A stretch of 56,242 nt of DNA from Treponema sp. (GTDB taxonomy: Bacteria; Spirochaetota; Spirochaetia; Treponematales; Breznakiellaceae). The position numbers and the translations under genes are program-made. The first letter of the stretch is position 1. The number at the start of each line of letters is the position of its first letter. The stretch is from assembly GCA_031266775.1 (NCBI GenBank), contig JAISAQ010000087.1:1-56242 (forward strand), given 5' to 3'. The notes beneath the pieces are model-generated. The model was not told where the DNA came from. It searched no databases and saw nothing but the letters and a program-made list of their open reading frames with translations. Positions 23,225 to 43,382 of the stretch are shown in pieces.

Positions 23225-23248
23225 GCGTAACTTATAAGGAGCATCGTG

Positions 23249-24256
23249 ATGTTGGAAAACAAAAAAATCGTCTTTGAAAAGCCCTGGGAAGCCCGGCTCG
23301 AAACCGGACCCTTTGATGACTGCTCCGTACCTTCGGGGCATGTAATCCTCAAAAAACAGTATTCGATTATATCAACGGGGACGGAACTGGCATGCCTGTC
23401 GGGCGGTGAAAGCTGGTTTAAAATGCCGGGAGTGCCCGGATATTCCTGCGTTGGCGAAATTATAAAAACCGCCCCGGATGTACAGGGTTTTTCCCCGGGC
23501 GACATGGTTTTTTGTTATGGCAATCACTCCCTTTACGAGGTGATTCCCGCCGAAGGGATCTTCCTTCACGCGCCTCGAGACGTTGATCCCAAATGGATTC
23601 CCTTTGTGCGGATGGCCTCCATTGCGGCGACGGCGATCCGGGTTTCGAATATTGAGTGGGGGGACATTGTCGCGGTAACAGGCCAGGGTCTGGTGGGGAA
23701 TATGGCCCTGCAGCTTGCAAAATTGCAGGGCGCCACGGTTATCGCCGTTGACGTGGCTGACCGCCGGCTTGCCGTTTCCCGGAACTGCGGGGCGGATCTT
23801 GCGATCAATTCGGCAAACACCGGCGCGGCGGAAGAGATCCGGCGTTTTTCAGGCGGCAGAATGGTGTCCACGCTGATTGAAGCCTCGGGAGTACCCGCGG
23901 CCGCGGCAGAGGCCGTCAACTGGGTCGGCCAAAACGGCGAACTTGTCTTTCTGGGCAGTCCGCGGGGCGCCTTTGAAACCGACATCACGCCCTTCCTCAA
24001 CCGGACGCATCTTGCGTCTTTTAATGTTACGTTAAAAGGCGCTCACGAGTGGCGGTTTCCGGTGAACAGCATTCCCTTTGTAAAACATTCCCTGGAACGG
24101 AATTCGCGGCTGGTTATGGATCTTTTTGCCAAAAAGAAAATCGTTCTGGAACCGCTGCTGACGGAGGTTGTTTCCCCCGCCGGCTGTTTTGACGTTTATA
24201 CCAAGGTACGGGACAATAAGGACGAGTATATGGGGATATTGTTTGACTGGAAATAA
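23249..24256 (+). CDS. Medium-chain dehydrogenase/reductase (zinc-type alcohol dehydrogenase-like)
   Basis: This NAD(P)-dependent MDR-family oxidoreductase has about 335 residues. Seen: a GroES-like N-terminal catalytic domain with STGTELACLSG and GVPGYSCVGEI, then a Rossmann domain with a GQGLVGNMALQLAKL nucleotide-binding motif near 144-158. The usual GHExxG zinc motif reads GYSCVG, so the catalytic zinc site looks altered or absent. Members with the TGTEL motif include sugar and polyol dehydrogenases. Start 23249 (ATG) or 23246 (GTG) both follow AAGGAG. Its place between importer and isomerase suggests that it oxidises the imported sugar derivative. Confidence 0.85.
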   Translation: MLENKKIVFEKPWEARLETGPFDDCSVPSGHVILKKQYSIISTGTELACLSGGESWFKMPGVPGYSCVGEIIKTAPDVQGFSPGDMVFCYGNHSLYEVIPAEGIFLHAPRDVDPKWIPFVRMASIAATAIRVSNIEWGDIVAVTGQGLVGNMALQLAKLQGATVIAVDVADRRLAVSRNCGADLAINSANTGAAEEIRRFSGGRMVSTLIEASGVPAAAAEAVNWVGQNGELVFLGSPRGAFETDITPFLNRTHLASFNVTLKGAHEWRFPVNSIPFVKHSLERNSRLVMDLFAKKKIVLEPLLTEVVSPAGCFDVYTKVRDNKDEYMGILFDWK

Positions 24257-24267
24257 CGGAGGACAAC

Positions 24268-24999
24268 ATGGATATTTCACTGCAGTTGTGGTCTATTAAG
24301 GAAGAAGTTGAGGAAGATTTTGCCCATGCCCTGGAAATGACGGAAAAGGCGGGGTACCAGGGGGTTGAGTTTGCCGGTTATCACGGAAAATCGCCCGCCG
24401 GGCTTGGGGATCTGCTTGCCGCATATCATTTAAAGGCGGTAAGTACCCACGCTGGAATGGATCGTTTGCGCACGGCCCTTGATACGGAGATAAGCTGCGC
24501 AAAAGCCCTTGGTTACAGGCTGATTGTTTGTCCCTGGTCCGACTGCAAAACCGCCGAACAGGTCATCGAGGATGCGGAGTTTCTTGAATCCTGCGCAGGG
24601 AAGGCGGCGAAAGAAGGAATCACCATCGGGTATCACAACCACAACCAGGAATTTAAAAAATTCGAAGGCAGATATGCCATGGACATCATGCTTGAACATA
24701 TGCCCTCCGTGAAATTTGAGCCTGACCTGTTCTGGATTGCCTACGGCCTTGTTGATCCGGTCCGGTATCTGGCCCCCCTTGCGGCGGCGGGCAGAATTGC
24801 CGCGATCCACGCCAAGGAACTCGACAAAGAGGGGCCCGATAATGTTTATATAGGCCAGGGAAAAATTGATTTTGCGGGCGTTGCCGCCCTTTGTCCTCCT
24901 GATACATACCCGTGGATCATAGAGCAGGAAGAATTTTCGAGCAGCCATTTTGACGGGATCTCAAAAAGCTGCCGGGGGCTTAAAAACATCATCGGATAA
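24268..24999 (+). CDS. Sugar phosphate isomerase/epimerase family protein (TIM barrel)
   Basis: This 243-residue protein belongs to the AP-endonuclease-2-like TIM-barrel family, which includes xylose-isomerase-like enzymes, ketose epimerases and inosose dehydratases. Seen: N-terminal LQLWSIKEEVEEDF, a metal-site GYHNHNQEF near 130-138, FEPDLFWI near 153-160 and IHAKELD near 185. GGAGG precedes the ATG. It is the last gene of the LacI-controlled operon, 11 bases after the dehydrogenase. Together they suggest oxidation followed by isomerisation, epimerisation or dehydration of the imported sugar; the exact reaction is unknown. Confidence 0.88.
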   Translation: MDISLQLWSIKEEVEEDFAHALEMTEKAGYQGVEFAGYHGKSPAGLGDLLAAYHLKAVSTHAGMDRLRTALDTEISCAKALGYRLIVCPWSDCKTAEQVIEDAEFLESCAGKAAKEGITIGYHNHNQEFKKFEGRYAMDIMLEHMPSVKFEPDLFWIAYGLVDPVRYLAPLAAAGRIAAIHAKELDKEGPDNVYIGQGKIDFAGVAALCPPDTYPWIIEQEEFSSSHFDGISKSCRGLKNIIG

Positions 25000-25298
25000 A
25001 AACAGCTTTATTTTATATGAAACCCTCAATACGAGTCAAAAAAAATACTTGACAAATGAAAGAAGTGTATTTACAATAATGATAATTCAAAAGACAGAGT
25101 ATGAGCAGGGTTTAATGTGGTGAAAAGTTTTTTTACCGTATTTTACGAACGCGGTTCGATATTACCGAACGCTATGAACACGGTTCGTTAATGCCAAACA
25201 AAAGCTGTTCACAACACCGGCCGGGTTTTGGGAAAGGCTCAATATTATGCGAACAGGGCGTACAGCGCGTAAAATATGACGGATAATATGGGGCCGCT
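25000..25298 (+). promoter_or_regulatory. Promoter and long structured leader of the first GRE-locus importer
   Basis: The strong promoter is TTGACA (25049-25054), 17 bases, TACAAT (25072-25077). It predicts a 5' leader of about 215 bases before ATG 25299. The leader holds a CGAAC-GCG-GTTCG palindrome (25146-25158), a second CGAACGC (25166-25172) and a second CGGTTCG (25181-25187), and repeat B copy 4 (25204-25240). No protein-coding frame of interest is seen. The leader could hold a regulator site or an RNA control element. Confidence 0.6.
25204..25240 (-). repeat. Dispersed palindromic repeat B, copy 4
   Basis: Inverted repeat around CCGGCCGG with arms GCTGTTCACAACACCGG and CCGGGTTTTGGGAAAGGC. 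On the minus strand it resembles copy 1. It lies about 60 bases before the start of the first importer gene. Confidence 0.7.
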
Positions 25299-26216
25299 AT
25301 GAATTTATACGGCGCGCGGAAGCGTGAGACAGGAATTGTTACCGCTTTTTTTTCATTGCCCGCGGTTGTTTTACTCCTGGTGTATATCTATTATTCCGTA
25401 GGATACGCGTTTTTCCTCAGTTTTCACGAATGGAACGGCATCGCGCCGGTCAAAGATTTTGTAGGGCTCATGAACTGGAAGGAACTGGTTCGGGATAACG
25501 CGTTTATTGAGGCGTTCAAGCACAATATTTATATCGTGGTATGGTCGCTTGTTGTTCAGCAGCCCATTGCCATGGCTCTTGCCTTTATGCTGATAAGGGC
25601 GGGCCGGAAATCAACTCCCCTCAAGGTCATTTACTATCTGCCGTCCCTGTTTTCAACCGCTTCGGTGGGGGTGCTTTTTTCGTACATTTACTCTCCCCGG
25701 GACGGGATCTTCACCGCGATGGCGAGCGGAATCGCGACCGTCATGCAGGGCGCTCCTGTCAGAGTAACCGTGGATATGTTTCAGGTTGGAACCTCTCTTT
25801 TAAGCGTCTTTTCGGTAATCAGCTGGACCGCCATTCCCTTTTATATTTTGTTTTACATGGCGGCGATGAGCGGCATATCCACCGACATTTATGAAGCCGC
25901 GATAATTGACGGAGCCAGCCTGGGGCAGTATTTCTTCCGCATTATGCTTCCTTCGCTGAAATTTTCAATCCAGACCGCCTGTACACTTTCAATAATAGGT
26001 TCCCTCAAGTATTTTGATTTGATCTACATTATTACCGACGGAGGCCCCAGTTTTTCTTCCGAATTGATGGCGACTTACATGTTCAGGCAGACATTCCGTT
26101 TCCGCCAGATGGGGTACGGTTCGGCTACCGCGGGGGGGCTGTTTATCATAGTGGTTGTTTTTTCGCTTTTGGTTCTGTTTGTTTCCAATAAAATACTCAG
26201 GGAAAATGAAGAATGA
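25299..26216 (+). CDS. Sugar ABC transporter permease (MalF type), GRE locus importer 1
   Basis: This 305-residue permease has about six membrane segments, starting with VTAFFSLPAVVLLLVYIYYS near 14-33. The EAA-like loop reads YEAAIIDGASLGQYFF...LP. It is a close paralogue of the permease at 30880: both begin MNLY-AR and share YIYYSVGYAFFLSF and the MNW(K/R)EL segment. It overlaps the next permease by four bases (ATGA). It is driven by the promoter at 25049-25077. Ligand unknown. Confidence 0.93.
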   Translation: MNLYGARKRETGIVTAFFSLPAVVLLLVYIYYSVGYAFFLSFHEWNGIAPVKDFVGLMNWKELVRDNAFIEAFKHNIYIVVWSLVVQQPIAMALAFMLIRAGRKSTPLKVIYYLPSLFSTASVGVLFSYIYSPRDGIFTAMASGIATVMQGAPVRVTVDMFQVGTSLLSVFSVISWTAIPFYILFYMAAMSGISTDIYEAAIIDGASLGQYFFRIMLPSLKFSIQTACTLSIIGSLKYFDLIYIITDGGPSFSSELMATYMFRQTFRFRQMGYGSATAGGLFIIVVVFSLLVLFVSNKILRENEE

Positions 26217-27058
26217 TTGCCGGTAAATCAAGGACGCGTTATTTGTTTTTATATCTTGTCACGGGTTTTTTCGCGCTGTTTTACGCGGCCATCAGCCTGC
26301 TTCCCTTTTATTCAATGGCCCTGACATCCTTGAAGACCCAGAACGACTACGCCGTAAACGGCTTTTTCTCCCTTCCCCAGGTCTATGTGTTTTCCAATTA
26401 CAGGACCGTCATAAAAGACGGTATCTTCAATTATTTTAAAAACAGCGTCATTCTGGTAGTGGTTTCACTTACCCTGCTGCTCGTTATCAGCATGCTGGTA
26501 AGTTATCCCCTTTCACGGTTTTATTTCCGTCTTCGAAAGCCCATGATGTCGTTTTTTGTGGCAAGTCTTGCCATACCCATGCATGTTACCCTTATTCCCA
26601 TATACCTTTTGACCCGTACGCTGGGTATATATGACACGTATCCCGCGCTTATTATTCCCTATATAGCGTTCAATATTCCGATTACCGTATTTATCCTTGT
26701 TAATTTCATGAAGACTATTCCCCGGGAACTGGAAGACGCCGCTGAAATTGACGGCTGCGGCAAAGTCGGCATATTCAGCAATGTAATCGTTCCCCTGTCC
26801 GGCGCGGGCGTGGTGACCGTGGGGATTTATAACGCCATTAACATGTGGAACGAATTCACCTTTGCGCTGGTGCTGACCCAATCGGCGGCCATGCGTACCC
26901 TTCCCATGGCAGTGTGGAACTACAAGGGACAATATTCGGGAACCGTTCCCCTGATTTTTTGTGTTCTGCTGCTGTCGGTGGTTCCCATGATTATCGCCTA
27001 TGCCGTAGGCCAGGACAAACTGGTCCAGGGGATGATGGCGGGCGCGCTGAAAGGATGA
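26213..27058 (+). CDS. Sugar ABC transporter permease (MalG type), GRE locus importer 1
   Basis: This 281-residue permease carries the EAA loop LEDAAEIDGCGKVGIF...IVPL near 180-200 and ends in QGMMAGALKG, as expected of the MalG type. It is a close paralogue of the permease at 31779 (shared IPMHVTLIPIYLLTR, FNIPITV and MWNEF segments). Translation is coupled to the upstream permease through an ATGA overlap. A repeat B hairpin (27063-27096) lies right after the stop, before the binding-protein gene. Confidence 0.93.
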   Translation: MIAGKSRTRYLFLYLVTGFFALFYAAISLLPFYSMALTSLKTQNDYAVNGFFSLPQVYVFSNYRTVIKDGIFNYFKNSVILVVVSLTLLLVISMLVSYPLSRFYFRLRKPMMSFFVASLAIPMHVTLIPIYLLTRTLGIYDTYPALIIPYIAFNIPITVFILVNFMKTIPRELEDAAEIDGCGKVGIFSNVIVPLSGAGVVTVGIYNAINMWNEFTFALVLTQSAAMRTLPMAVWNYKGQYSGTVPLIFCVLLLSVVPMIIAYAVGQDKLVQGMMAGALKG

Positions 27059-27062
27059 AAAA

Positions 27063-27096
27063 CGTCTTCGAAACCCCGTCCGGGTTTTCGGGGACG
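27063..27096 (-). repeat. Dispersed palindromic repeat B, copy 5 (variant)
   Basis: Inverted repeat CGTCTTCGAAACCCCG / TCCGGGTTTTCGGGGACG located five bases after the permease stop, in the 137-base gap before the binding-protein gene. It shares the GAAACCC...GGGTTTTC core of family B. Confidence 0.65.
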
Positions 27097-27195
27097 ATGG
27101 ATAAAGATATGTGTCTACCTGTTTCCGGAAAGCTGCCGGGAATAAAGATAGAGGCGCAATTTTTGCGTACAAGTTTGAGAAGAAGAGGTATAATT

Positions 27196-28506
27196 ATGAA
27201 ACAGTCAAGCAGGGCCATAATACTGGGCACGGTATTGTTTGTAGCGCTTGCCCTGTCGGCTTATGCCGGGCCGGGACAGGATGGAAACGCGTCGGGAAAG
27301 AAGACCATATCATTTTGGAAGGTCATCTCTCCTCCGGCTTATGATGACAATATCAAGGCAAATATAACCCGGTTTGAAAAAGATAATCCCGATTTTGCCG
27401 TGGAGCAGACGTATCTGCAAAACGAAGATTACAAGGCAAAAATTGTTATCGCGCTGGGTTCCAATACGGCTCCCGACATATTTACGACATGGACGGGCGG
27501 CGGCATGATCGAATATGTCAAATCCAGTCTGATCATCCCCCTGACAAAGTATATGAATACTCCCTATCAAAGTCTTCCCGCATACAAGGATTATTTCATG
27601 GAAGGCGGCATAAATCAGGCAACGTATCAGAACGATGTCTGGGCAACCCCCGGATTGAACGCTTCCGTCCTGTTTGTCTGGTACAGTAAAAAAATATACG
27701 ACAGGCTGGGGCTTAAAATTCCCGCTACCCTTGCCGAACTTGAAGCCAACTGTGATAAAATACGCGCCGCGGGCATTGTTCCCTTTGGATTGGCAAACAA
27801 GGCGAAATATCACGCGTCCTTTTACTATATGCTCCTGGTTGACCGCTACGGCGGCCCCCAGGTTTTCCAGAATGCGGCCAACCGGATAAATGGCGGGACG
27901 TTTAATGATCCGGCGTTCACCTGGGCATCACGGAAAATGCAGGAATGGGCCCGAAAAGGATATTTCCCCGAAGGCTATAACAGCCTTGACGGCGAGGCCG
28001 ATGTACACCGCAGGATGTTCTACAACCAGGAAGCGGCCATGCTGATTGAAGGGTCGTGGACTGTGGCGAATTTAATGTCTGACGGACAGAACATTAACGA
28101 TTATGGCCTGTTCCCGTTCCCCGTTGTTGAAGGCGGCAGAGGCTCGATAAACGGCATGGTAGGTACCATTGGCGATTCCTTCTATTGTATCAATTCAAGG
28201 GCGAAGTACCCTGATGAATCCTTTAAGCTTATTCAGTATCTTGTTGATGAAGCCGCGATAAAAGGGTTTGTGTCAGGCGGCGGTACTCCTCCTACGAAGA
28301 ATGCCAGTGCGGGCGATCCCCTCAGCGAGGATGTCCTCAAGTATCTGAAAGCAAGCACCAGCACCCAGCTCTGGTACGATCAGTACCTGCCCAGCGCCAT
28401 GGCCGAAGTGCACAAGGATTCCCTTCAGTCCATGGTGGGCCTGACCATTACGCCTGAACAGTACAACCAGGCTATGGAAGAAGCCGCACGGCGGTATCTG
28501 AAATAA
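27196..28506 (+). CDS. Sugar ABC transporter substrate-binding protein, GRE locus importer 1
   Basis: This 436-residue periplasmic binding protein has a signal peptide (about 1-23, ALSAYAG) and no lipobox Cys. It shows the family-1 fold with LQNEDYKAKIVIALGS, NTAPDIFTTWTGGGMIEY, MQEWARKGYFPEGYNSLDGEA and LWYDQYLPSAMAE. Most of these blocks recur nearly unchanged in the binding protein at 35200, so the two importers probably arose by duplication and bind related ligands. ATG 27196 follows an AGAGG box; the frame is open far upstream into the permease gene, but the signal peptide fixes the start. A strong terminator follows. Confidence 0.93.
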   Translation: MKQSSRAIILGTVLFVALALSAYAGPGQDGNASGKKTISFWKVISPPAYDDNIKANITRFEKDNPDFAVEQTYLQNEDYKAKIVIALGSNTAPDIFTTWTGGGMIEYVKSSLIIPLTKYMNTPYQSLPAYKDYFMEGGINQATYQNDVWATPGLNASVLFVWYSKKIYDRLGLKIPATLAELEANCDKIRAAGIVPFGLANKAKYHASFYYMLLVDRYGGPQVFQNAANRINGGTFNDPAFTWASRKMQEWARKGYFPEGYNSLDGEADVHRRMFYNQEAAMLIEGSWTVANLMSDGQNINDYGLFPFPVVEGGRGSINGMVGTIGDSFYCINSRAKYPDESFKLIQYLVDEAAIKGFVSGGGTPPTKNASAGDPLSEDVLKYLKASTSTQLWYDQYLPSAMAEVHKDSLQSMVGLTITPEQYNQAMEEAARRYLK

Positions 28507-28514
28507 TTTCCGGG

Positions 28515-28556
28515 AGCCTCCAAAAACAGGACTTGTTTTTGGAGGCTTGTTTTTTG
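28515..28556 (+). terminator. Rho-independent terminator after importer 1
   Basis: Perfect 14-bp stem AGCCTCCAAAAACA (28515-28528) and TGTTTTTGGAGGCT (28534-28547) around a 5-base loop, followed by TGTTTTTT. It separates importer 1 from the glycyl radical enzyme gene, which has its own promoter. Confidence 0.93.
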
Positions 28557-28573
28557 GATTGTGAAAAAAATGC

Positions 28574-28602
28574 TTGACAAACGGAAAGAGTGCATTTAAG
28601 CT
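28574..28602 (+). promoter_or_regulatory. Promoter of the glycyl radical enzyme gene
   Basis: TTGACA (28574-28579), 17 bases, TAAGCT (28597-28602). From the preceding C through the spacer it closely resembles the promoter at 25049-25077 (both contain TTGACAAA, then AGTG, then ATTTA at identical spacing, with only transitions between them), suggesting a shared regulator. Confidence 0.6.
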
Positions 28603-28669
28603 CCTTTTCGAGGAAGAAGGCGGCCGTCCGCCCGAAAAAAATTATGGCGCCGAAAGGGGAAATACGACG

Positions 28670-30871
28670 ATGAAATTATCGCAAACCGTTCTGGAAAAAG
28701 AAAAAAGGGTAAGGCAGCACGCCGAAGACGCCGTTTTGCAGCCCATATATGAATCTTCAAAGTACGCTTATGAAGAACTCTATAAAGATTTACCCATGTG
28801 GGAAAGAACCGCGCGTTCTGTGGCGTATCAATTTGATCATCAGATTATTGATGTTGAAGATGATGATGTGGTAGTAGGACGGTACAATTTCAAGAAATTT
28901 CTTCCCGGCACCGTTCCGGGCCAGCATCCCAGAAAAACGCACACCGACGGCACGTATCTTTTTGGGCTGGCCCATAGAGCCATGTACGAGGAAGTGGCAA
29001 AAAAATACCCGTATATGCGCTCCGACTATGTAGAGTGCGGGCTTCACGCCGATGCTTTCTGGAACGGCCACGAGGCCCATGCCTTTCAAATTGTGCTGCA
29101 CATGGGCTGGCAGGGCATGCGCGATTTGGCCGAACGCAGCTTAGCCCGTTCAAAAGATCCGAAATCCGGGGAATTTTACCGCGGTTTGATTATTACGCTG
29201 GATGCCCTTGTACGCTATAACGATCGTTATGTGGAAGAGCTTGAAAAAAGGGGCATGAAAAAACAGGCCGAAATCTGCCGCCGCGTTCCCCGTTATCCCG
29301 CGGCAAATTTCCGCGAGGCGGTGCAGTGTATCAATATGGTTTATTTTACCGTAACGCAGGAGGCAAGCGGTACCTGGGGGCCGGGATGGATTGATTATTA
29401 CCTGTGGCCGTACCTTGAAAAGGATCTTAAGCTTGGAATAATTACCGAAGAGGAAGCGTATGATCTTTGCGGGTATCTTTTGATACAGCTGGACAGCCGT
29501 ATCTGCATGGATGAGGAACATAACGATACTGTTAATCTTGGCGGCAGTCATCCAAACGGGGTCCCCGCGGTAAGCCCGCTTACCTATATGTTCGCCAACG
29601 CGGTAACGGAGCTGGATATTACCAGCCTTCTGGTATATATCAAAATGCCCGCCGATCCCCCGGAGGGATTTATTGAATTTGCCGCCGACTGGCTCATACG
29701 GGGCAGAAACAGGGGGCAGATTCTCAGCGACAAGGCGATAGCGGGGGCTCTTGCGTACCGGGGAACTCCTTATCACGAAGCCCTTTCCTATACGTCAAAC
29801 GGCTGTATGGAAATTTCCTGTTCAAACGCCAACAGCGATCTCCTCCTCTGCGGCTGGTTTAACATGCCCAAATTTGTTGAACTTGCCGTAACGGGAAACA
29901 GGGACCTCGTAAACGGAAAAACCTATGATTCCCTGCATTACAGGGGGCTTGAACACTGCGGTTCCTGGGATGAATTTTACGCTGATTTTCTTGCCGAAAG
30001 CCGCCGTATTCTGCTTGAGTATTTTGACTGCATAGACATTTTGAGCAAGTACAGCGCCATATACCGGCCCACGTATTACGCCAGTTCCATGCTGAATGAC
30101 TGCATGCTGAGGGGGCGGAACATGTCGGACGGCGGGACCAGGTACAACGACTACGGCGTGTCTCCTGTGGGCATAGGTACGGCGGCGGATTATTTGTACG
30201 GCATAAAAAAGGCGGTTTTTGACGATCGTTTCTGTTCCGCCCCGGAGATGGTTGCCGCGCTGGAATCGAATTTTGAGGGCCGCGAAGTCTTGCGGCAGAA
30301 GCTGCTGAATATACCCAAATTCGGAGAGGACAATGAAGAGTCCGACGCTCTGGCGGTACGGTATGTCAATGACATGTGTGATATTTATGAGTCTTATGAA
30401 AACAGGCTTGGCGGCGTAGTAAAGCCGGTGGTGTTTACCTTTGTCTGGGCAAATAAATGCGCCATGCACCTCGGCGCAATGGCCGATGGTTCTTTTGCGC
30501 ATACGGCCGTTTCCCAGGGAACGACGCCCGCGAGCCATTCCATGAAGGCGGGCGTTACGGCGGCTATACTTTCAAACTGCAAGCTCCCGATGCACCGTTT
30601 TTCGGGCGGCGGATCGTCAATGTGGGATTTTGATCCCTCGTGGATTAACTCGCGGCTTAACGGCCAGTTTCTTTCCGCGTTTCTGTCGCTTGGAGGGCAG
30701 ATGTACCAGGGGAATTCTTCTTCGGACCCCGAAGAACTCCTTAAAGCCCAGAAGGATCCCAACAGTTACACGCATGTGCTGGTGCGGGTCGGCGGTTTTT
30801 CCGCGCATTTTGTCGATCTTGATCGTGACATACAGGATGACATACTTGCCCGTTACCGCCATCATGCATAG
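28670..30871 (+). CDS. Divergent glycyl radical enzyme (PFL/diol-dehydratase superfamily)
   Basis: This oxygen-sensitive radical enzyme has 733 residues. Seen: a C-terminal glycyl radical motif RVGGFSA with the radical Gly at 709, 24 residues from the end; a thiyl-radical Cys379 in NGCMEIS with Glu381, the Cys-x-Glu arrangement of glycerol/propanediol-type eliminases; and GGTRYNDYG plus YLYGIKKAVFDD, family landmarks. The normally conserved PDGR.A..PLADG.SP loop is replaced by ADGSFAHTAVSQGTTP, and the protein is shorter than typical diol dehydratases (about 780-790). ATG 28670 follows AAAGGGG. Its activase is encoded at 36612. Chemistry of the elimination type (C-O cleavage of a polyol or sugar derivative) is inferred from Cys-x-Glu and context; it is clearly not a canonical pyruvate formate-lyase, which has adjacent cysteines. 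Confidence 0.9.
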   Translation: MKLSQTVLEKEKRVRQHAEDAVLQPIYESSKYAYEELYKDLPMWERTARSVAYQFDHQIIDVEDDDVVVGRYNFKKFLPGTVPGQHPRKTHTDGTYLFGLAHRAMYEEVAKKYPYMRSDYVECGLHADAFWNGHEAHAFQIVLHMGWQGMRDLAERSLARSKDPKSGEFYRGLIITLDALVRYNDRYVEELEKRGMKKQAEICRRVPRYPAANFREAVQCINMVYFTVTQEASGTWGPGWIDYYLWPYLEKDLKLGIITEEEAYDLCGYLLIQLDSRICMDEEHNDTVNLGGSHPNGVPAVSPLTYMFANAVTELDITSLLVYIKMPADPPEGFIEFAADWLIRGRNRGQILSDKAIAGALAYRGTPYHEALSYTSNGCMEISCSNANSDLLLCGWFNMPKFVELAVTGNRDLVNGKTYDSLHYRGLEHCGSWDEFYADFLAESRRILLEYFDCIDILSKYSAIYRPTYYASSMLNDCMLRGRNMSDGGTRYNDYGVSPVGIGTAADYLYGIKKAVFDDRFCSAPEMVAALESNFEGREVLRQKLLNIPKFGEDNEESDALAVRYVNDMCDIYESYENRLGGVVKPVVFTFVWANKCAMHLGAMADGSFAHTAVSQGTTPASHSMKAGVTAAILSNCKLPMHRFSGGGSSMWDFDPSWINSRLNGQFLSAFLSLGGQMYQGNSSSDPEELLKAQKDPNSYTHVLVRVGGFSAHFVDLDRDIQDDILARYRHHA

Positions 30872-30879
30872 GAGGAACC

Positions 30880-31782
30880 GTGAATCTGTATAACGCGCGG
30901 CGGCGGGAGATATTTTTTGTCTCCGCGCTGTTTTTGGTGCCGGCGGTTTTTCTTCTTCTGGTGTATATTTATTATTCTGTCGGGTACGCGTTTTTTCTGA
31001 GTTTTCGGGACTGGAACGGAATAGATCCGGTAAAGCGGTTCGTTGAGATGATGAACTGGAGGGAGCTGCTGAGGGACCCGTCGTTTACGGGGGCCATCAG
31101 GCACAATCTCTTGATTATTGTCATGTCTCTTGTTATCCAGCAGCCGATAGCGATAGCCCTGGCGTTTATGCTGGACAGAATGGGGCCGCGCTCGGGCCCC
31201 CTCAGGGTCGTGTATTATTTCCCCGCGTTATTTTCCACGGCCGCGGTCGGAATGCTTTTTACGTTTATTTATTCGCCCCGCAACGGCATTTTTACAACCA
31301 TTTCACGGATATTCGGCGGCGGTATTGTGGATCTTCTTGGCAATCCGTCAATGTCGCTTATGGGCGTGTTTACCGTTATCTGCTGGACGGCGATACCTTT
31401 TTACATGCTTTTTTACCGCGCTGTTTTATCCGCCATGGATACCGAAATTTACGAAGCGTCGCTTATAGACGGCGCCACGCTTTCACAGTATTTTTTTCGC
31501 ATTGTACTGCCCATGATAAAGGTGTCTATACAGACGGCCTGTACCCTTTCCATGATAGGTTCATTGAAATATTTTGACCTTGTGTACATCATGACCGAAG
31601 GGGGCCCGAATTCGTCTTCCGAACTGATGGCGACCTATATGTACCGCATGACCTTCCGTTTCAGGCGCATGGGATACGGGTCCTCAATCGCCTCCGGCAT
31701 GTTTATCATCGTCGTCCTGTTTTCACTGCTCTTTCTTTTTATTTCCAATATAATCATGAAGGAAAACGGTAAAAAAGCATGA
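30880..31782 (+). CDS. Sugar ABC transporter permease (MalF type), GRE locus importer 2
   Basis: This 300-residue permease is a paralogue of the one at 25299, with the same MNLY-AR-RE start, YIYYSVGYAFFLSF membrane segment and EAA loop (YEASLIDGATLSQYFF). The GTG start at 30880 has an AGGAGG box and lies eight bases after the glycyl radical enzyme stop, so enzyme and importer 2 are cotranscribed. It overlaps the next permease by four bases. Confidence 0.93.
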   Translation: MNLYNARRREIFFVSALFLVPAVFLLLVYIYYSVGYAFFLSFRDWNGIDPVKRFVEMMNWRELLRDPSFTGAIRHNLLIIVMSLVIQQPIAIALAFMLDRMGPRSGPLRVVYYFPALFSTAAVGMLFTFIYSPRNGIFTTISRIFGGGIVDLLGNPSMSLMGVFTVICWTAIPFYMLFYRAVLSAMDTEIYEASLIDGATLSQYFFRIVLPMIKVSIQTACTLSMIGSLKYFDLVYIMTEGGPNSSSELMATYMYRMTFRFRRMGYGSSIASGMFIIVVLFSLLFLFISNIIMKENGKKA

Positions 31783-32618
31783 AAAAATTCAAAGCCCGGC
31801 GGCTGCCCGTATATATTATCACCGGTCTTTTTGCCTTTGTATGGACGCTTGTCAGCCTTCTGCCTTTTTATCTTATGATTATGTCGTCATTCAAGTCGCA
31901 GCCCGATTACGGAAGAAATGGTTTTTTTTCTTTTCCCCGGGAGTTCATGTTTTCAAATTATGTCCGCGTAGTTAAAGACGGCATATTTACCTACTTCAGA
32001 AACAGTCTTGTCGTAACGGTAGTCGCGCTTGTGGCGCTGCTCTTTCTAAGCCTGTGCGCGGCCTATCCGCTTTCGCGCTTCCGTTTCCGCCTTAAGGCGC
32101 CCCTCAATTCATTTTTCGTCGCCAGCATGGCGATTCCCATGCACGTAACCCTTATTCCCATCTACCTCCTAACGAGGGCTCTGGGAATGTACGACAAACT
32201 GCAGGGGCTGATTGTTCCCTATGTCGCCTTTAATATACCTATTACCGTTTATATTCTGGTAAATTTTATGAAGACGATTCCCCTTGAACTGGAAGACGCC
32301 GCGGAAATTGACGGCTGCGGTAAAATCGGCGTCTTCGCGAATGTCATCGTTCCGCTGACCGGTTCGGGCCTTGTAACGGTGGCGATTTACGACGCGATTT
32401 CAATGTGGAACGAATTCAGTTTTGCCCTTGTCTTGATGCAGTCAAGGACAATGCGCACGCTGCCTCTGGCAGTCTGGAATTACAAGGGCCAGTACTCCTC
32501 TTCCGTTCCTCTTGTTCTTTGCGTGTTGTTTATGTCCGTGCTTCCGATGATTATCGCCTATGCCGTAGGGCAGGACAAACTCGTCAAGGGGATGATAGCG
32601 GGAGCCATAAAGGGTTAA
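31779..32618 (+). CDS. Sugar ABC transporter permease (MalG type), GRE locus importer 2
   Basis: This 279-residue MalG-type permease is a paralogue of the one at 26213, with the EAA loop LEDAAEIDGCGKIGVF...IVPL and the C-terminus KGMIAGAIKG. The ATG overlaps the upstream permease stop. Two bases separate its stop from the IlvD/Edd dehydratase start, so import and catabolism are in one transcript. Confidence 0.93.
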   Translation: MKKFKARRLPVYIITGLFAFVWTLVSLLPFYLMIMSSFKSQPDYGRNGFFSFPREFMFSNYVRVVKDGIFTYFRNSLVVTVVALVALLFLSLCAAYPLSRFRFRLKAPLNSFFVASMAIPMHVTLIPIYLLTRALGMYDKLQGLIVPYVAFNIPITVYILVNFMKTIPLELEDAAEIDGCGKIGVFANVIVPLTGSGLVTVAIYDAISMWNEFSFALVLMQSRTMRTLPLAVWNYKGQYSSSVPLVLCVLFMSVLPMIIAYAVGQDKLVKGMIAGAIKG

Positions 32619-32620
32619 AC

Positions 32621-34330
32621 ATGAAATACAGGAGTGAAGACATCCTGAAAGGCGAAAACAGCGTATTTTACCGTTCGCTTTTCAAATCCATGGGATACAC
32701 CGATTATGAGCTGAATGGAAGACCCCTCATAGGTATTGCCAATTCATGGAATACCCTTATTCCCGGTCATGTTAACCTGAACAATGTGGCCGAATTTGTA
32801 AAGAAAGGCATATACAGCGCGGGAGGTACTGCCGTTGAATTCGGCGTTCCCGCCGCCTGCGACGGCATTGCCCAGGGGCATGAAGGAATGAATTACATAC
32901 TTCCTTCCCGCGAAATAATCTGCGATTCCGTTGAATGTATGGCGCGCGCGCATAAACTTGACGGGCTTGTGCTGCTTGCCTCCTGCGACAAAATCGTCCC
33001 GGCAATGCTGATGGCGGCGGCCAGGCTTGATATTCCGGCCGTCATGGTACACGGCGGCCCCATGCTTGGCGGAACGGAATTTGACGGCAGAAAATCCGAT
33101 TTGACTTCGATAGAAGAAGCCCGGGGCATGTATGTCAAGGGGAAAATTTCAAAAGATCAATTTGTTTCGCTTGAAAATACCGCCTGTCCCGGCTGCGGGT
33201 CCTGTTCGTTTCTGGGAACGGCAAATACCATGAGCTGTGTTACGGAGGCGCTGGGGCTTTCCCTTCCGGGAGAAGCCCTTGTTCCGGCGGTGTACGCCGA
33301 ACGGCTCCGGTATGCTTTTTTGTCGGGCAGGGCCGTCTGCGCGCTTGTGGAAGGGAATACCGGCGCGCGTAAAATTCTTGTCAAAGAGGCGGTTAAAAAC
33401 GCCATAAAAGTCGTTATGGCGATAAGCGGTTCGACAAACGCCGTCCTGCATTTATGCGCCGTCGCCAATGAAGCCGGTCTTGACATGAACGTGATTGAGG
33501 AATTTGAGTCCCTGAATAAAATAACGCCGCAGATTGCAAGGGTAAATCCGGCGGCATCCTGGGATATGGAAGCCTTCCACCGGGCCGGGGGAATTCCCCG
33601 TGTAATGGGCATGCTTGGGGATCTCCTTGATCTTGGCGTGCTGACCTGTACCGGGCGGACGCTTGGGGAAAATATCGCCTCTTATACATTCAGCTACCCT
33701 GAAAATCCCGAAATAATAAAAACCAGGAAAGATCCTTTCAGCGCCACGGGGGGAATAGCCGTGCTTCACGGGAATCTTGCCCCGAATACCGCGATTAGCA
33801 AACCTGGGGCCATAGATCCCGCCCTGCGCCGTTTCAGCGGGAAGGCGCGGGTGTTTAACAGCGAAGAGGAAGCGGAAGAGGCGATTCTCGGCGGGAACAT
33901 CAGGGGGGGCGATGTAGTTGTCATACGGTACGAGGGCCCCAAGGGCGGGCCGGGTATGAGGGAGATGTTCAAGGCCATGAAGTACATCTACGGCATGGGG
34001 CTGCACAAGTCGGTCGCGCTTATTACGGACGGCCGTTTTTCAGGTACCAATAACGGCTGTTTCGCCGGCCATATATCGCCTGAGGCCGCCGAAGGAGGGC
34101 CCCTTGCCATTGTTGAAGACGGGGACGGAATAGACATTGATGTCATTGAGGGAACGCTTAATCTGAACGTGTCCGATGAGGAAATACAACGCCGTTTTTC
34201 AGGCTGGGTAAAGGTAACAAAAACAATTCCACGGGGTTATCTGGAACTCTATTCGGCCGTGGCTTCCTCGGCCGACAAGGGGGCCGTCATTGATCGCCGG
34301 TTTTTTTTAAACCGGAAAGAGAATGCCTGA
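32621..34330 (+). CDS. IlvD/Edd family dehydratase (sugar-acid or dihydroxyacid dehydratase)
   Basis: This Fe-S cluster dehydratase, 569 residues, removes water from a 2,3-dihydroxy acid or an aldonic acid to give a 2-oxo-3-deoxy acid. Seen: Cys122 in SCDKIVP and the CPGCGSC motif (Cys189, 192, 195), both Fe-S-associated; IAQGHEGMNYILPSRE; and the C-terminal DGRFSGTNNGCFAGHISPEA signature. At the position of the third cysteine of [2Fe-2S] sugar-acid dehydratases (TPCN) it has IPGH, as in E. coli IlvD. No branched-chain amino acid genes are near, so a catabolic role on a sugar acid is more likely than isoleucine/valine synthesis. ATG 32621 is chosen from the family N-terminus; the upstream open frame lies inside the permease gene. 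Confidence 0.88.
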   Translation: MKYRSEDILKGENSVFYRSLFKSMGYTDYELNGRPLIGIANSWNTLIPGHVNLNNVAEFVKKGIYSAGGTAVEFGVPAACDGIAQGHEGMNYILPSREIICDSVECMARAHKLDGLVLLASCDKIVPAMLMAAARLDIPAVMVHGGPMLGGTEFDGRKSDLTSIEEARGMYVKGKISKDQFVSLENTACPGCGSCSFLGTANTMSCVTEALGLSLPGEALVPAVYAERLRYAFLSGRAVCALVEGNTGARKILVKEAVKNAIKVVMAISGSTNAVLHLCAVANEAGLDMNVIEEFESLNKITPQIARVNPAASWDMEAFHRAGGIPRVMGMLGDLLDLGVLTCTGRTLGENIASYTFSYPENPEIIKTRKDPFSATGGIAVLHGNLAPNTAISKPGAIDPALRRFSGKARVFNSEEEAEEAILGGNIRGGDVVVIRYEGPKGGPGMREMFKAMKYIYGMGLHKSVALITDGRFSGTNNGCFAGHISPEAAEGGPLAIVEDGDGIDIDVIEGTLNLNVSDEEIQRRFSGWVKVTKTIPRGYLELYSAVASSADKGAVIDRRFFLNRKENA

Positions 34331-34332
34331 AA

Positions 34333-35118
34333 GTGAAAATAGATTTGACCGGCAAAACGGCCGTTGTTACAGGCGGAAGTTCGGGTATAGGCTTCGCGGC
34401 GGCCAGGGCATTGGGCCTGTGCGGCGCCAAAGTGGCTTTTTGCGGGACAAACGAAAAACGTCTCGCGGACGCGCGTGACGCGCTTGGAAAAGAAAACATT
34501 TCCGTGTACGGAGAAACCTGTGATGTAGCCGATTCGGCGGCTCTTTTTAATTTCGCGGATAATGTGGAGAAAAACCTTGGGGAAATAAATATCTGGGTGA
34601 GTAACGCCGCCGTTTATCCGCAATGCCTGCTTGTGGAAACTCCCGAAGATGTGTGGTACCGGACGCTGGATGTGAATATGAAATCGGTGTATTTGGGCGG
34701 CAGGATAGCGCGGCGGAAAATGCGGAACGGCGGCGTATTGATAAACGCGGCTTCTTTTGCGGGCATAATGCCTTCGGTGGGAAGCGGGCTTTATGCGGCG
34801 AGCAAGGCCGCCGTCTCCAGCATGACAAAAGTCCTTGCCGCCGAACTCGCGCCTTTATGTATACGTGTGTGCGCCTACACCCCCGGAGTTATTGATACCG
34901 GCATTACCCGTCCGTTGATTGAAGCAAACGGCGAAGCCATGAAAAACAGCATCGCCATGCGGCGTTTTGGCCGCTGCGAGGAAGTCGGAAACTGCATAGC
35001 TTTTCTTGCTTCCGATTATGCGTCTTATGTTTCCGGGGTTACCCTGGAAATAAGCGGGGGCAAATTTTGCGTTCAGAATCCCGCCGACGCGTGGAGTCAT
35101 TTTGAAACGGCGTCATAA
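34333..35118 (+). CDS. Short-chain dehydrogenase/reductase
   Basis: This 261-residue classical SDR uses NAD(P). Seen: nucleotide motif TGGSSGIG (about 13-20), the NAA motif (WVSNAAVY) near 92-99, a catalytic Ser (INAASF), Tyr154 and Lys158 in YAASK, and the PG....T segment (TPGVIDTGIT). GTG 34333 lies two bases after the dehydratase stop, so the two are probably co-translated. It most likely oxidises or reduces a hydroxyl of the imported sugar, polyol or sugar acid before or after dehydration; substrate and direction are unknown. Confidence 0.9.
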   Translation: MKIDLTGKTAVVTGGSSGIGFAAARALGLCGAKVAFCGTNEKRLADARDALGKENISVYGETCDVADSAALFNFADNVEKNLGEINIWVSNAAVYPQCLLVETPEDVWYRTLDVNMKSVYLGGRIARRKMRNGGVLINAASFAGIMPSVGSGLYAASKAAVSSMTKVLAAELAPLCIRVCAYTPGVIDTGITRPLIEANGEAMKNSIAMRRFGRCEEVGNCIAFLASDYASYVSGVTLEISGGKFCVQNPADAWSHFETAS

Positions 35119-35143
35119 CCGCGTTAAAGACTCAGGATACACA

Positions 35144-35173
35144 TTGTGAATGGTATTATACGTATGTATAATA
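35144..35173 (+). promoter_or_regulatory. Internal promoter with overlapping palindrome before the second binding protein
   Basis: TTGTGA (35144-35149), 17 bases, TATAAT (35167-35172). A perfect palindrome, TATTATAC-GTAT-GTATAATA (35154-35173), covers the spacer and the -10, a good position for a repressor operator. This would let the binding protein and activase be expressed separately from the genes upstream. Confidence 0.65.
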
Positions 35174-35199
35174 ATATTACAGGACAAGAGGAGAAGAAT

Positions 35200-36504
35200 A
35201 TGAAAAGGTCATGGTTTTGCCGGCCGGTTGTTTTACTGCCGGCATTGGTCGTTGTTTTTTCTATTGCGGGATGTTCAAAGTCAGGCGGCGGCGCTTCTTC
35301 CGCACAGGATACAAAGACAATCGCACTGTGGGAGATTCAGACCGAAAGCGGGGTGGACGGTATTATCACCGACAGTCTGGCGCGCTTTGAGGCCGCGAAT
35401 CCCGGATACAGGGTAGACAAAAACGTGCTTCAGAATGAGGATTATAAATCCAAGATTGTCGTAGCGCTTGGATCAAATACCGCTCCCGATATATTTGTTA
35501 CCTGGACGGGAGGGGGAATGATTGAATATATCAACGCCGATAAAATTATTCCCCTTACGCGTTATTTGAATCAGAATAACTACAAGGATTATTTCATGGA
35601 TGGCGGTATCGCGCAGGCCACGTATAACGGGGATATCTGGGCCGTACCGGTGGAAAACTGTTCGGTGGCCGGCATTTTTTACAACACGGCGGTATTTGAC
35701 AGACTGGGAATAGGGGTTCCCCGAACCATAGGGGAGCTGGAAGCGGCCTGCGATAAAATGATCGCAAACAACGTTGTTCCTTTCGGGCTTGCGAACAAGG
35801 CAAAATATGTCGCTTCGTTCTATTACATGTACCTCGTGGACAGGTATGCCGGCCCCCAGACATTCGCGGATGCCGCGAACAGGGCAAACGGCGTCACCTT
35901 TAACGATGAAGCCTTCCTCTGGGCCGGCCGGAAAATGCAGGAATGGGCCAGAAAAGGCTATTTCGGCGAAGGGTACAACAGCCTTGACGGCGAAACGGGC
36001 GTTCACCGGCAGATGTTCTACAACCGTGAATGCGGCATGGTGCTCGACGGCGCCTGGGCGGTGTCGGGTTTTTATGATGACCAGGCTCCGGTTGAAGATA
36101 TTTCACTGTTTCCCTTTCCCGCGCTTGAAGGCGGCAAGGGTGATATAAACAACATGGTTGGAACCCTCGGCGATACCTTCTATTGCATCAGTTCCATGAC
36201 GCCCTATGCCGACCAGGCCTTTGAGGTGATCCGTTTTCTGATAGACGAATCCGCCGTGAAGGCCAGAGTCGGAGTCGGCCGCGTTCCGCCTACAAAAAAC
36301 GCCACCGCGGGCAATCCGCTCAATGTAACGGTGCTGGATATGCTTCAAAAGGCGCCCAGTATTCAGCTGTGGTACGATCAGTATCTGCCCAGCGCGATGG
36401 CGGAGATTCACAAAGATCAATTGCAGGCGCTTGTCGGCTTGAGCGTTACCCCTGAAGCCTACAACGACGCGATGGAAAAAGCGGCGGAGGCTTATTTGAA
36501 ATGA
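35200..36504 (+). CDS. Sugar ABC transporter substrate-binding lipoprotein, GRE locus importer 2
   Basis: This 434-residue binding protein has a lipoprotein signal with lipobox FSIAGC (Cys near 25), so it is membrane-tethered, unlike its paralogue at 27196. It shares LQNEDYKSKIVVALGS, APDIFVTWTGGGMIEY, MQEWARKGYFGEGYNSLDGE and LWYDQYLPSAMAE with that protein. GAGGAG precedes the ATG, and its own promoter lies just upstream. The stop overlaps an ATG that could start an N-terminally extended form of the activase. Confidence 0.93.
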   Translation: MKRSWFCRPVVLLPALVVVFSIAGCSKSGGGASSAQDTKTIALWEIQTESGVDGIITDSLARFEAANPGYRVDKNVLQNEDYKSKIVVALGSNTAPDIFVTWTGGGMIEYINADKIIPLTRYLNQNNYKDYFMDGGIAQATYNGDIWAVPVENCSVAGIFYNTAVFDRLGIGVPRTIGELEAACDKMIANNVVPFGLANKAKYVASFYYMYLVDRYAGPQTFADAANRANGVTFNDEAFLWAGRKMQEWARKGYFGEGYNSLDGETGVHRQMFYNRECGMVLDGAWAVSGFYDDQAPVEDISLFPFPALEGGKGDINNMVGTLGDTFYCISSMTPYADQAFEVIRFLIDESAVKARVGVGRVPPTKNATAGNPLNVTVLDMLQKAPSIQLWYDQYLPSAMAEIHKDQLQALVGLSVTPEAYNDAMEKAAEAYLK

Positions 36505-36514
36505 GGGAGGATTC

Positions 36515-36576
36515 GGAAACCCCGGCGGGGTTTCCGGGCGGCCCGGGGCCGCATGCATGCGGCTGCCGTGCCCCGG
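36515..36576 (+). repeat. Repeat B copy 6 plus GC-rich cloverleaf-like palindromes in the activase leader
   Basis: GGAAACCCC-GGC-GGGGTTTCC (36515-36535) is a perfect 9-bp hairpin with the family B core. It is followed by CCGGGGC (36543-36549) pairing with GCCCCGG (36570-36576), enclosing the perfect palindrome CCGCATGCATGCGG (36549-36562). There is no T-run, so a terminator is unlikely. The structure separates the binding-protein gene from the activase core. Confidence 0.75.
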
Positions 36577-36611
36577 AGATCCCTTCCACGGGAAGCACAG
36601 AGCCGGATCGC

Positions 36612-37499
36612 ATGTGTGTCTTTGACATTCAGCGGATGTCGCTGCATGACGGCCCCGGTATACGGACAAACGTATTTCTTAAGGGCTGCAATCTTCGCTG
36701 TTTCTGGTGCCATAATCCCGAGTCGTGGAATGTACATCCTGACATCCAGTATTTTGAGGCTAAATGCATAGGCTGTGGAAGCTGTGTTTCCGTATGTCCG
36801 CTTGCCCTGCACGGTATCGGTGAAAACGGCGTTCATGTGTATAAAAGGGACGGCTGTACGGTCTGCGGAAAATGCGCGGAGGCGTGTCCCTCCGAAAGTC
36901 TTGTCCTGACCGGGCGTATGATGACGCTCGATGAAATTGTAAAAGCCGCCAAAAGGGACATGCCTTTTTATGAAAAATCGAACGGAGGGGTCACCGTTTC
37001 CGGCGGGGAGCCGCTGCTTCAGTATGCCGCGGCGGCAAAACTGCTCGAGCGCCTCAAGGATAACGGCGTGCATACCGCCCTGGAAAGCGCGCTGTGCGTA
37101 CCGGAGGATCATCTGGACGCCGTTATTCCCTATACCGATTTTTTTCTTGTTGACATGAAGATCGCGGATGCGGAGCAGCATAAAAAATTTACGGGTGCTT
37201 CAAACCGTGCGATAAAAAAGAATTTTCATCATCTTGACGATTTACGGTGCGGCTACTGTATGCGCGTTCCGCTGGTTCCGGGCGTTAATGACAATAAGGA
37301 AGCCATGTTCCAAATAGCGGAGTTTGCCTCGGGACTTTCCTGTCTTTCGTATGTCGAATTCCTTCCGTATCACAGCCTGGGCGAGGGGAAATTTAAAAGT
37401 CTCGCTCTTGAGTTCAGAGCGGGCCTCGAGCCTCCGTCAAAGGAAACAATGGCATCTCTCGCCGGAATTTTTCCCGAAACCGTTGAAGTGCGTTTTTAG
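36612..37499 (+). CDS. Glycyl radical enzyme activating protein (radical SAM)
   Basis: The activase uses S-adenosylmethionine and a [4Fe-4S] cluster to place the radical on the partner enzyme's glycine. Seen from Met 36612 (295 residues): FDIQRMSLHDGPGIRT, the radical SAM triad CNLRCFWC (Cys26, 30, 33), then an inserted two-cluster ferredoxin-like domain (CIGCGSCVSVCP near 52-63 and CTVCGKCAEACP near 82-93), GGVTVSGGEPL (SAM binding) and a VPLVPGVND segment. Two extra clusters are usual for activases of dehydratase-type glycyl radical enzymes. An in-frame ATG at 36501 overlaps the previous stop and would add 37 Gly/Pro-rich residues encoded by the palindromes; family comparison favours 36612. 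It is separated from its enzyme by about 5.7 kb but is the only activase in view. Confidence 0.92.
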   Translation: MCVFDIQRMSLHDGPGIRTNVFLKGCNLRCFWCHNPESWNVHPDIQYFEAKCIGCGSCVSVCPLALHGIGENGVHVYKRDGCTVCGKCAEACPSESLVLTGRMMTLDEIVKAAKRDMPFYEKSNGGVTVSGGEPLLQYAAAAKLLERLKDNGVHTALESALCVPEDHLDAVIPYTDFFLVDMKIADAEQHKKFTGASNRAIKKNFHHLDDLRCGYCMRVPLVPGVNDNKEAMFQIAEFASGLSCLSYVEFLPYHSLGEGKFKSLALEFRAGLEPPSKETMASLAGIFPETVEVRF

Positions 37500-38374
37500 G
37501 GAACCCCAAACAGCTTTTCCATCATGACCGGAATATACCGGTTCCAGTAATCCCACACGTGGGCGCCGCTGCCGGTGGTCAGACTGTACCTCAGCCCTTT
37601 TTGGGCGGCGAAATCCCTGAACAGCAGGTTGCTTTCGTAATGGTAATCCTGTTCGCCGCAAAAGGCCATAAGGGCAAGTTCCGGTTTTTTTTCGAGGATT
37701 TTTTCCGCCAGGAAAAACAGATCGCAGGGACCGGAGCGAAGAGCCGGGCGGACGCCGAACATGGCTTCGAAAGCGCGTATGGTTCTCTCTCCGCTCATTT
37801 TGCAAAGTTCCGTGACAAGAAGTTCCGGGATGCGGTTTTTTTCCGAATAGAGTCTGCAAGCTTCCCTCTTTTTACCGTCGTCCTCCAGCCCCGCGGCCCC
37901 GGCTATATCCCTGTCCGTCAATATCTGGTAAATCCAGTCTATGCGCATGGGACCTGAGAGACTGACGGCGGTATGGTATTTTTCGCTGCTGGTTAAAGCC
38001 GTTAAAAACGCGCCGTACGCGCCCATGGAAATGCCGGCAATGTAATTGTCGTTGGGATTTTTTGACAGGGGCAGCAGTCCTGACAGAATATCAGGAAGCT
38101 CTTTTGAAATCCACGCCGCATAGTCACATCCGTAAGCCATGTCATGATAAAAACTGAGATCGGCATTCGGAAAAACAACCGCGACGCCGTATTTTTCCGC
38201 TTCGAGTTCCAGCAGGGAACTGCGGAGGCATCCGGTATGATCGTCGCCCATGCCATGAAGAAACCACAGGGTTTTTACGGGCCTGTCATGCGAGGAATGC
38301 GCGGGCAGGAGAATAACCGCCTCCGTTTTTTTACCCAGCGATTGCGAGTACAGATTCATCTCCAAAAGTATCAT
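37496..38374 (-). CDS. Putative esterase (esterase D/FrmB-like alpha/beta hydrolase)
   Basis: This 292-residue predicted cytosolic serine esterase shows WFLHGMGDDHTG (oxyanion region), the nucleophile elbow AGISMGAYGA, and a C-terminal GAHVWDYWN with the catalytic His. Such enzymes remove acetyl or other acyl groups from sugars or S-formylglutathione. ATG 38374 follows a GGAGGGA box; a start at 38389 is less likely. It converges on the activase gene, with the two stop codons overlapping (37496-37499), so it may deacylate substrates of the same pathway; this link is inference from position. Confidence 0.85.
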   Translation of the reverse strand: MILLEMNLYSQSLGKKTEAVILLPAHSSHDRPVKTLWFLHGMGDDHTGCLRSSLLELEAEKYGVAVVFPNADLSFYHDMAYGCDYAAWISKELPDILSGLLPLSKNPNDNYIAGISMGAYGAFLTALTSSEKYHTAVSLSGPMRIDWIYQILTDRDIAGAAGLEDDGKKREACRLYSEKNRIPELLVTELCKMSGERTIRAFEAMFGVRPALRSGPCDLFFLAEKILEKKPELALMAFCGEQDYHYESNLLFRDFAAQKGLRYSLTTGSGAHVWDYWNRYIPVMMEKLFGVP

Positions 38375-38401
38375 AATAAGTCCCTCCAATAAATAAAAAA
38401 T

Positions 38402-43381: not shown

Positions 43382-43382
43382 G

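Follow-up and report, generated by a model that had tools for sequence, protein, structure and literature searches.

A conserved glycyl radical enzyme cassette of Treponema and Lachnospiraceae, tentatively read as an anaerobic pentose pathway

A glycyl radical enzyme of an uncharacterised family, encoded in a Treponema sp. genome, was found in constant association with an IlvD/Edd iron-sulfur (Fe-S) dehydratase (hereafter IlvD) and a short-chain dehydrogenase/reductase (SDR). The locus occupies positions 25299-37499 of the window, which is the whole analysed stretch of 56,242 nucleotides (contig JAISAQ010000087.1 of assembly GCA_031266775.1; C104 in our numbering), part of a 3.1 Mb assembly with 87% completeness (G000). 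Tentatively, we read it as an anaerobic pathway for a pentose or pentonate, in which the radical enzyme would act first, followed by the SDR, an esterase and IlvD, up to 4-hydroxy-2-oxopentanoate, which would be split into pyruvate and acetaldehyde; this is possible rather than probable. Anaerobic gut communities are rich in glycyl radical enzymes, and for many sequence clusters of these enzymes no substrate has been assigned. Here, the comparative context provides named lower-pathway enzymes scoring over their cut-offs, which narrows the substrate question to a short, testable list. If the pentose pathway is real, anaerobes could convert a pentose into acetyl-CoA and pyruvate while bypassing both phosphorylated sugar intermediates and the two-carbon product glycolaldehyde.

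When the family alignment was used to scan the GTDB genomes, 70 loci were retrieved, six with a radical enzyme at 64-98% identity and 64 at 45% or less. IlvD and SDR genes stand beside the radical enzyme gene in all seven loci of the subclade, that is, the window and the six loci at about 64% identity or more. These seven belong to three Treponema metagenome-assembled genomes, with four loci, and to three from Lachnospiraceae (L018-L020). In L021, both the IlvD-SDR and the SDR-radical enzyme junctions overlap by ATGA. A six-frame search found IlvD in none of the 64 more distant loci, 32 of which hold at least 15 kb, while shorter ones could miss a neighbour; five of the 64 carry an SDR, always a distant one (26-30% identity). 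The linkage of radical enzyme, SDR and IlvD, which the initial annotation had put up for neighbourhood comparison, holds throughout the subclade and, for IlvD, stops at its border. The subclade itself is rare: it occurs in 3 of the 390 genomes from the order of the window, in 1 of 397 sampled genomes of the family to which the L018 genome belongs, and in 2 of 77 genomes of one genus. This rarity suggests that the cassette spread horizontally.

The ten plus-strand genes are closely spaced, and all their assignments are backed by Pfam or NCBIfam. Two permeases and a solute-binding protein (importer set B) are followed by the radical enzyme, two permeases of importer set C, IlvD, the SDR, the set C binding protein and the activase:

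25299..26216, plus strand: importer set B permease 1 (BPD_transp_1), 65% identical to its set C counterpart
26213..27058, plus strand: importer set B permease 2 (BPD_transp_1), 69% identical to its set C counterpart
27196..28506, plus strand: importer set B solute-binding protein (SBP_bac_1), 60% identical to its set C counterpart
28514..28548, plus strand: terminator-like hairpin of 16 pairs followed by a T run, a pattern match only
28670..30871, plus strand: glycyl radical enzyme of 733 residues, with C379-M-E381 and G709, from an uncharacterised family
30880..31782, plus strand: importer set C permease 1 (BPD_transp_1), kept in six of the seven subclade loci
31779..32618, plus strand: importer set C permease 2 (BPD_transp_1)
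32621..34330, plus strand: IlvD/Edd Fe-S dehydratase of dihydroxy-acid dehydratase (DHAD) type (TIGR00110, 654.5 bits, cut-off 618.15)
34333..35118, plus strand: SDR, linked in all seven loci
35200..36504, plus strand: importer set C solute-binding protein, with a xylo-oligosaccharide binder among its solved relatives
36501..37499, plus strand: radical SAM activase with two ferredoxin-like Fe-S motifs (TIGR02494)
37496..38389, minus strand: alpha/beta-hydrolase esterase (PF00756), convergent, in five of the seven loci

The hairpin separates the genes of binding protein B and the radical enzyme. In the pattern scan, which returned 25 sites against 19.7 +/- 5.9 in shuffles, no other stem listed comes close to it in length. 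Because of this hairpin, the ten genes may form two transcription units. A promoter-like site with 11 of 12 matches lies ahead of importer set B (25049-25077), in a scan with 20 sites of at least 9/12 matches against 15.0 +/- 3.5 in shuffles.

The bracketing of the locus enzymes by two related importers, as initially proposed, was borne out. Sets B and C are 60-69% identical, and therefore, judging by sequence, derive from one importer that was duplicated around the radical enzyme; the upstream set A (20116-23224) shares 24-35% identity with both. The best solved relatives of binding protein C are sugar binders, with 139 bits for a xylo-oligosaccharide binder and 100 for a chitin-oligosaccharide binder. 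The one subclade locus without set C permease 1 is on a contig that stops inside the radical enzyme gene. The initially noted absence of an aldehyde dehydrogenase, a kinase and an aldolase was confirmed among the ten genes, which also lack an ATPase. No microcompartment shell-protein gene was detected by a Pfam scan of the 16 proteins of 20116-38389, and no whole-genome search was made.

The activase scores 327.2 bits with TIGR02494 (cut-off 174.35) and carries three cysteine motifs, one at residue 63 and the two extra Fe-S motifs at residues 89 and 119. Pfam, NCBIfam and these motifs agree with the initial assignments of activase, IlvD and SDR. The activase is kept in six of the seven loci, the seventh contig ending early. 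The esterase was omitted from the initial gene list, which was correct for the genes it named; although outside 25299-37499, the esterase is part of the conserved set. No esterase was detected in L017, and in L021 the contig stops before one could show. In L020, esterase (residues 1-289) and IlvD (303-856) form a single 859-residue frame.

The radical enzyme matches the Pfam domains PFL-like (PF02901, 330.9 bits) and Gly_radical (PF01228, 47.8 bits). The catalytic residues named at the outset, Cys379-x-Glu381 and Gly709, are present in the translation as C379, M380 and E381, and as G708-G709 within RVGGFS. C379-M380-E381 is invariant in all 28 aligned sequences, and such a CXE motif in the Cys loop is reported to mark eliminase-class glycyl radical enzymes (PMC7077986). 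With the PFL-like domain, the C-terminal radical-glycine domain, the motif and a cognate activase, the locus shows the sequence hallmarks examined for that class. Relatives of solved structure are 18-26% identical, and the enzyme stays under every curated NCBIfam cut-off that it matched. Rejected identities (bits/cut-off) include glycerol/1,2-propanediol dehydratase (TIGR01774, 268.8/678.2), HypD (NF043068, 215.7/1100), CutC (172.7/1050), HpsG and HpfG (234.4 and 190.4, cut-off 1000 each), and indoleacetate and 4-hydroxyphenylacetate decarboxylase (121.4/1100 and 114.2/1150). Pyruvate formate-lyase (50.7/994.2) and PRK09983 (178.9/1109), a model that we take to represent PflD, were rejected as well.

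By its sequence, the enzyme belongs to a large, unnamed and uncharacterised family. The wider family, at about 32-45% identity, extends over Clostridia, Lentisphaerota, Planctomycetota, Armatimonadota, Latescibacterota, Poribacteria and others. A quick maximum-likelihood tree (92 rows, with long branches flagged among the distant ones) unites the linked enzymes with five proteins of unread context, at a Shimodaira-Hasegawa-like approximate likelihood ratio (SH-aLRT) support of 100. The initial expectation that the enzyme would fall in no characterised cluster agrees with NCBIfam and the PDB, and with this tree, in which YbiW and PflD were the only characterised members; no similarity network was made.

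Among the fold neighbours of the radical enzyme, nearly tied at the top, are the 1,2-propanediol dehydratase (PD) and the glycerol dehydratase (GD), with about 25% identity. GD Ser282 and Asp447, which we take to have functional roles, align with Thr235 and Leu393. The segment between barrel strands 2 and 3 is about ten residues shorter than in GD, and Phe333 of GD falls in a 10-column gap between the family profile and 1r8w; this substrate-packing Phe (Phe333 in GD, Phe338 in PD) is described between those strands (PMC7077986) and is absent here. As read from the alignment, the pocket differs from that of the small-diol dehydratases.

Further radical enzymes were seen outside the locus. In the window genome, two more lie beside importer genes, with activase-like radical SAM and fucose-isomerase-like genes (L108, C72:1-17000), and one lies beside importer genes with a GH2 mannosidase-like gene (L109, C47:1-8000). 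All three are under every NCBIfam glycyl-radical cut-off that they matched. Since the enzymes of L108 and L109 adjoin importer genes, the pairing of a radical enzyme with a sugar importer recurs in this lineage. In L043 (10001-22151) and L044, five genes of about 570 residues stand in tandem after a wider-family radical enzyme, and the one scanned has a BNR-repeat domain.

For IlvD, the best solved matches are DHADs (438 and 422 bits), followed by L-arabinonate dehydratase (330), galactonate dehydratase (270) and more distant members (234 and 220). It passes the ilvD cut-off of TIGR00110 and misses those of L-arabinonate dehydratase (NF009559, 416.6/882), YjhG/YagF xylonate dehydratase (TIGR03432, 252.1/808.15) and 6-phosphogluconate dehydratase (277.3/708.25). 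On these scores, it is of the DHAD type rather than of a known sugar-acid-dehydratase type. Such a type favours, without requiring, a short, methyl-ended acid as substrate, and one DHAD is reported to be less active on longer sugar acids (PMC9314677). Every IlvD/Edd copy found in the three Treponema genomes (one in G000, two in G001, one in G002) adjoins this radical enzyme, and no ilvC over cut-off was found in any of the three, which are 85-87% complete. Therefore, IlvD looks catabolic in Treponema. That it is instead the branched-chain amino acid enzyme, placed beside the radical enzyme by accident, would agree with the passed TIGR00110 cut-off, yet the missing ilvC, the linkage in all seven loci across two phyla, and the three Lachnospiraceae genomes, each with ilvC and three further IlvD/Edd copies (four in all), make this very improbable.

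The lower steps become visible in the Lachnospiraceae loci, as expected from the initial proposal that they are encoded outside the window locus. In L018-L020, a 4-hydroxy-2-oxovalerate aldolase (TIGR03217; 487, 498 and 486 bits, cut-off 286), an acylating acetaldehyde dehydrogenase (TIGR03215; 439, 442 and 451 bits, cut-off 282.25) and an iron-type alcohol dehydrogenase (Fe-ADH) share one strand with the SDR, IlvD and the esterase. A GntR-type regulator and a binding protein come next, and the radical enzyme, activase and permeases are on the opposite strand. Against solved 4-hydroxy-2-oxovalerate aldolases, the L018 aldolase scores 326-341 bits. The Fe-ADH, present in all three loci, is nearest to the PRK15138 alcohol dehydrogenase model; lactaldehyde reductase models score lower, and all are under cut-off. 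Among the 77 genomes of the genus to which L019 and L020 belong, TIGR03217 passes its cut-off in two, which are also the only two with the radical enzyme; as these are two congeners and the genes are neighbours, this co-occurrence counts as one event. The L018 genome has a second aldolase/dehydrogenase pair (L102, G060 C52:1-14000), together with a GH31 enzyme, an importer, a galactarate/altronate-dehydratase-like gene and a nickel-pincer isomerase (group 22, 563.7 bits, cut-off 400), perhaps a further sugar-acid route that likewise ends in such a pair.

In the pentose or pentonate pathway that we propose, Cys379 would abstract a hydrogen from C4, the carbon adjoining the terminal CH2-O, and the C5-O bond of a pentonate or pentopyranose would break. 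The product would be a methyl ketone, a 5-deoxy-4-keto pentose or pentonate. YbiW and PflD are reported to yield the same type of product, turning 1,5-anhydrohexitol phosphates into 1-deoxyfructose 6-phosphate (PMC12441222). Given an acid as substrate, the SDR would then reduce the ketone; given an aldose, it would oxidise C1. The esterase would open the lactone. IlvD would dehydrate C2-C3 of the 5-deoxypentonate (2,3,4-trihydroxypentanoate), a substrate inferred backward from 4-hydroxy-2-oxopentanoate. Finally, the aldolase and its partner dehydrogenase would yield pyruvate and acetyl-CoA, with acetaldehyde in place of the glycolaldehyde of the ordinary non-phosphorylative pentose route, and the acylating dehydrogenase would return the NADH used by the SDR. 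Within the steps before the aldolase, IlvD may also act ahead of the radical enzyme. The DHAD-type IlvD, the sugar-type importers and the rebuilt pocket agree with this pathway and prove nothing. Rather doubtful is its more specific form, a radical version of the Dahms route, in which the terminal C-O bond of the pentose or pentonate, possibly the pyranose C5-O5, is broken on the way to pyruvate and acetyl-CoA, and the NADH of the acylating dehydrogenase pays for the ketone reduction.

Several observations weigh against the proposed pathway. The Arg positions that lie near anionic groups in IslA and HypD, as reported in PMC7077986 and PMC8473560, are, by our reading of the alignment, F130 and V587 here, and an acid is therefore disfavoured as substrate of the radical enzyme. 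An imported aldose, in turn, needs two redox steps, for which one SDR is insufficient, and a second SDR is present in L018 only. A plain pentonate would be compatible with the DHAD type too, since the DHAD described in PMC9314677 also acts on D-ribonate and D-xylonate. The lower pathway is unevenly distributed: the TIGR03217 and TIGR03215 pair is in all three Lachnospiraceae loci, a small sample in which two come from one genus, and in none of the four Treponema loci. In the window genome (87% complete), neither model over cut-off nor an HpcH/HpaI aldolase was found; it has a 2-keto-3-deoxy-6-phosphogluconate (KDPG)-type aldolase beside a PfkB-family kinase, away from the locus, which would fit a different end. 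The congeners G001, G002 and G003 do have the aldolase pair, away from the locus. It is accompanied by a catechol 2,3-dioxygenase in L101 (G003 C298; 352.8 bits, cut-off 320.2), and by hydratase-like genes under cut-off in L101 and L100 (G002 C104), so the pair has another job there. Neither kind of gene was seen in L099, and only glyoxalase-type genes were seen beside the pair in G001. The occurrence of the dioxygenase in L101, and of hydrolase- and hydratase-like genes in L101 and L100, concerns relatives of a presumably anaerobic Treponema.

The main rival places the radical enzyme last, on a small diol. The SDR, the esterase as lactonase, and IlvD would run an ordinary non-phosphorylative route from a pentose or 6-deoxyhexose, and the aldolase would release pyruvate and glycolaldehyde or lactaldehyde, which the Fe-ADH would reduce to ethylene glycol or 1,2-propanediol. 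The radical enzyme would dehydrate the diol to acetaldehyde or propanal, and the TIGR03215 enzyme would form acetyl- or propionyl-CoA. This scheme uses all the Lachnospiraceae genes, including the Fe-ADH found in each of their loci, every one in a known kind of reaction, and a single SDR is enough. It also suits the diol dehydratases among the top fold neighbours and the single esterase-IlvD frame of L020, which fits a lactonase. The aldolase, however, is a canonical 4-hydroxy-2-oxovalerate aldolase, a type that favours acetaldehyde and propanal, and neither it nor the Fe-ADH stands beside the core in any of the four Treponema loci. Aldose dehydrogenase, lactonase and acid-sugar dehydratase do form a standard trio (PMC6336799). 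Against a diol substrate speak the identity of only about 25% to the diol dehydratases, the shortened strand 2-3 segment without Phe333, and the Thr235 and Leu393 replacements. We regard this route as unlikely, and as somewhat less likely than the pentose pathway.

Improbable, in our view, is a hexose-level route, in which an imported hexonate or hexose is converted by the SDR and IlvD to 2-keto-3-deoxygluconate or a deoxy relative, the Treponema PfkB-family kinase and KDPG-type aldolase complete the pathway, and the radical enzyme dehydroxylates a side substrate or the same sugar. A KDPG-type aldolase over cut-off is indeed present in all six genomes tested, adjoining the kinase gene in G001 as in the window genome, and the regulator beside L021 resembles BhcR (169.7/350) and KdgR (165.3/275), both under cut-off. 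Yet the Lachnospiraceae loci hold the 4-hydroxy-2-oxovalerate aldolase pair despite the KDPG-type aldolases in their genomes, and IlvD is far under the 6-phosphogluconate and YjhG/YagF xylonate dehydratase equivalogs.

Beyond the locus, the window holds further genes. An upstream cluster (20116-24999) combines importer set A with a zinc-type dehydrogenase and a xylose-isomerase-like TIM barrel protein; the contigs of relatives stop at importer set B. On the other side, an aconitase-family protein gene (38405-40756, minus strand) adjoins the esterase gene, and 42710-52802 encodes a D-lyxose isomerase family protein, a GH38 mannosidase, a further importer and a two-component system with an AraC-type regulator.

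Our literature searches found no description of a radical enzyme combined with IlvD, an SDR and the aldolase pair, and each known system resembles the locus in part. YbiW and PflD, the 1,5-anhydroglucitol- and 1,5-anhydromannitol-6-phosphate lyases, are likewise glycyl radical enzymes acting on carbohydrates, with the methyl-ketone type of product that we propose (PMC12441222). In contrast to the ATP-binding cassette importer of this locus, their substrates are phosphorylated by the phosphotransferase system; they are 22-24% identical in structure comparisons and fall outside this enzyme's clade in the tree. The B12-independent GD and PD share the fold, the CXE motif and the first-strand His (H164, H134 here), and differ in the longer strand 2-3 segment with Phe333, in the replaced Ser282 and Asp447, and in that our locus has no microcompartment gene. 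HypD differs at Tyr450 and Thr645, which by our reading align with Trp396 and Phe591, and this locus has no proline genes. The non-phosphorylative pentose routes (Dahms Route I, Weimberg Route II and Route III) share a dehydrogenase, a hydrolase, an acid-sugar dehydratase and a sugar importer with the locus (PMC6336799), whereas here a glycyl radical enzyme is added, and the Lachnospiraceae loci pair a meta-cleavage-type aldolase with an acylating acetaldehyde dehydrogenase. The aromatic meta-cleavage lower pathway has these same two enzymes, over curated cut-offs in L018-L020; there the pair lies beside sugar-type genes, whereas in Treponema L101 it lies beside the dioxygenase and hydratase-like genes.

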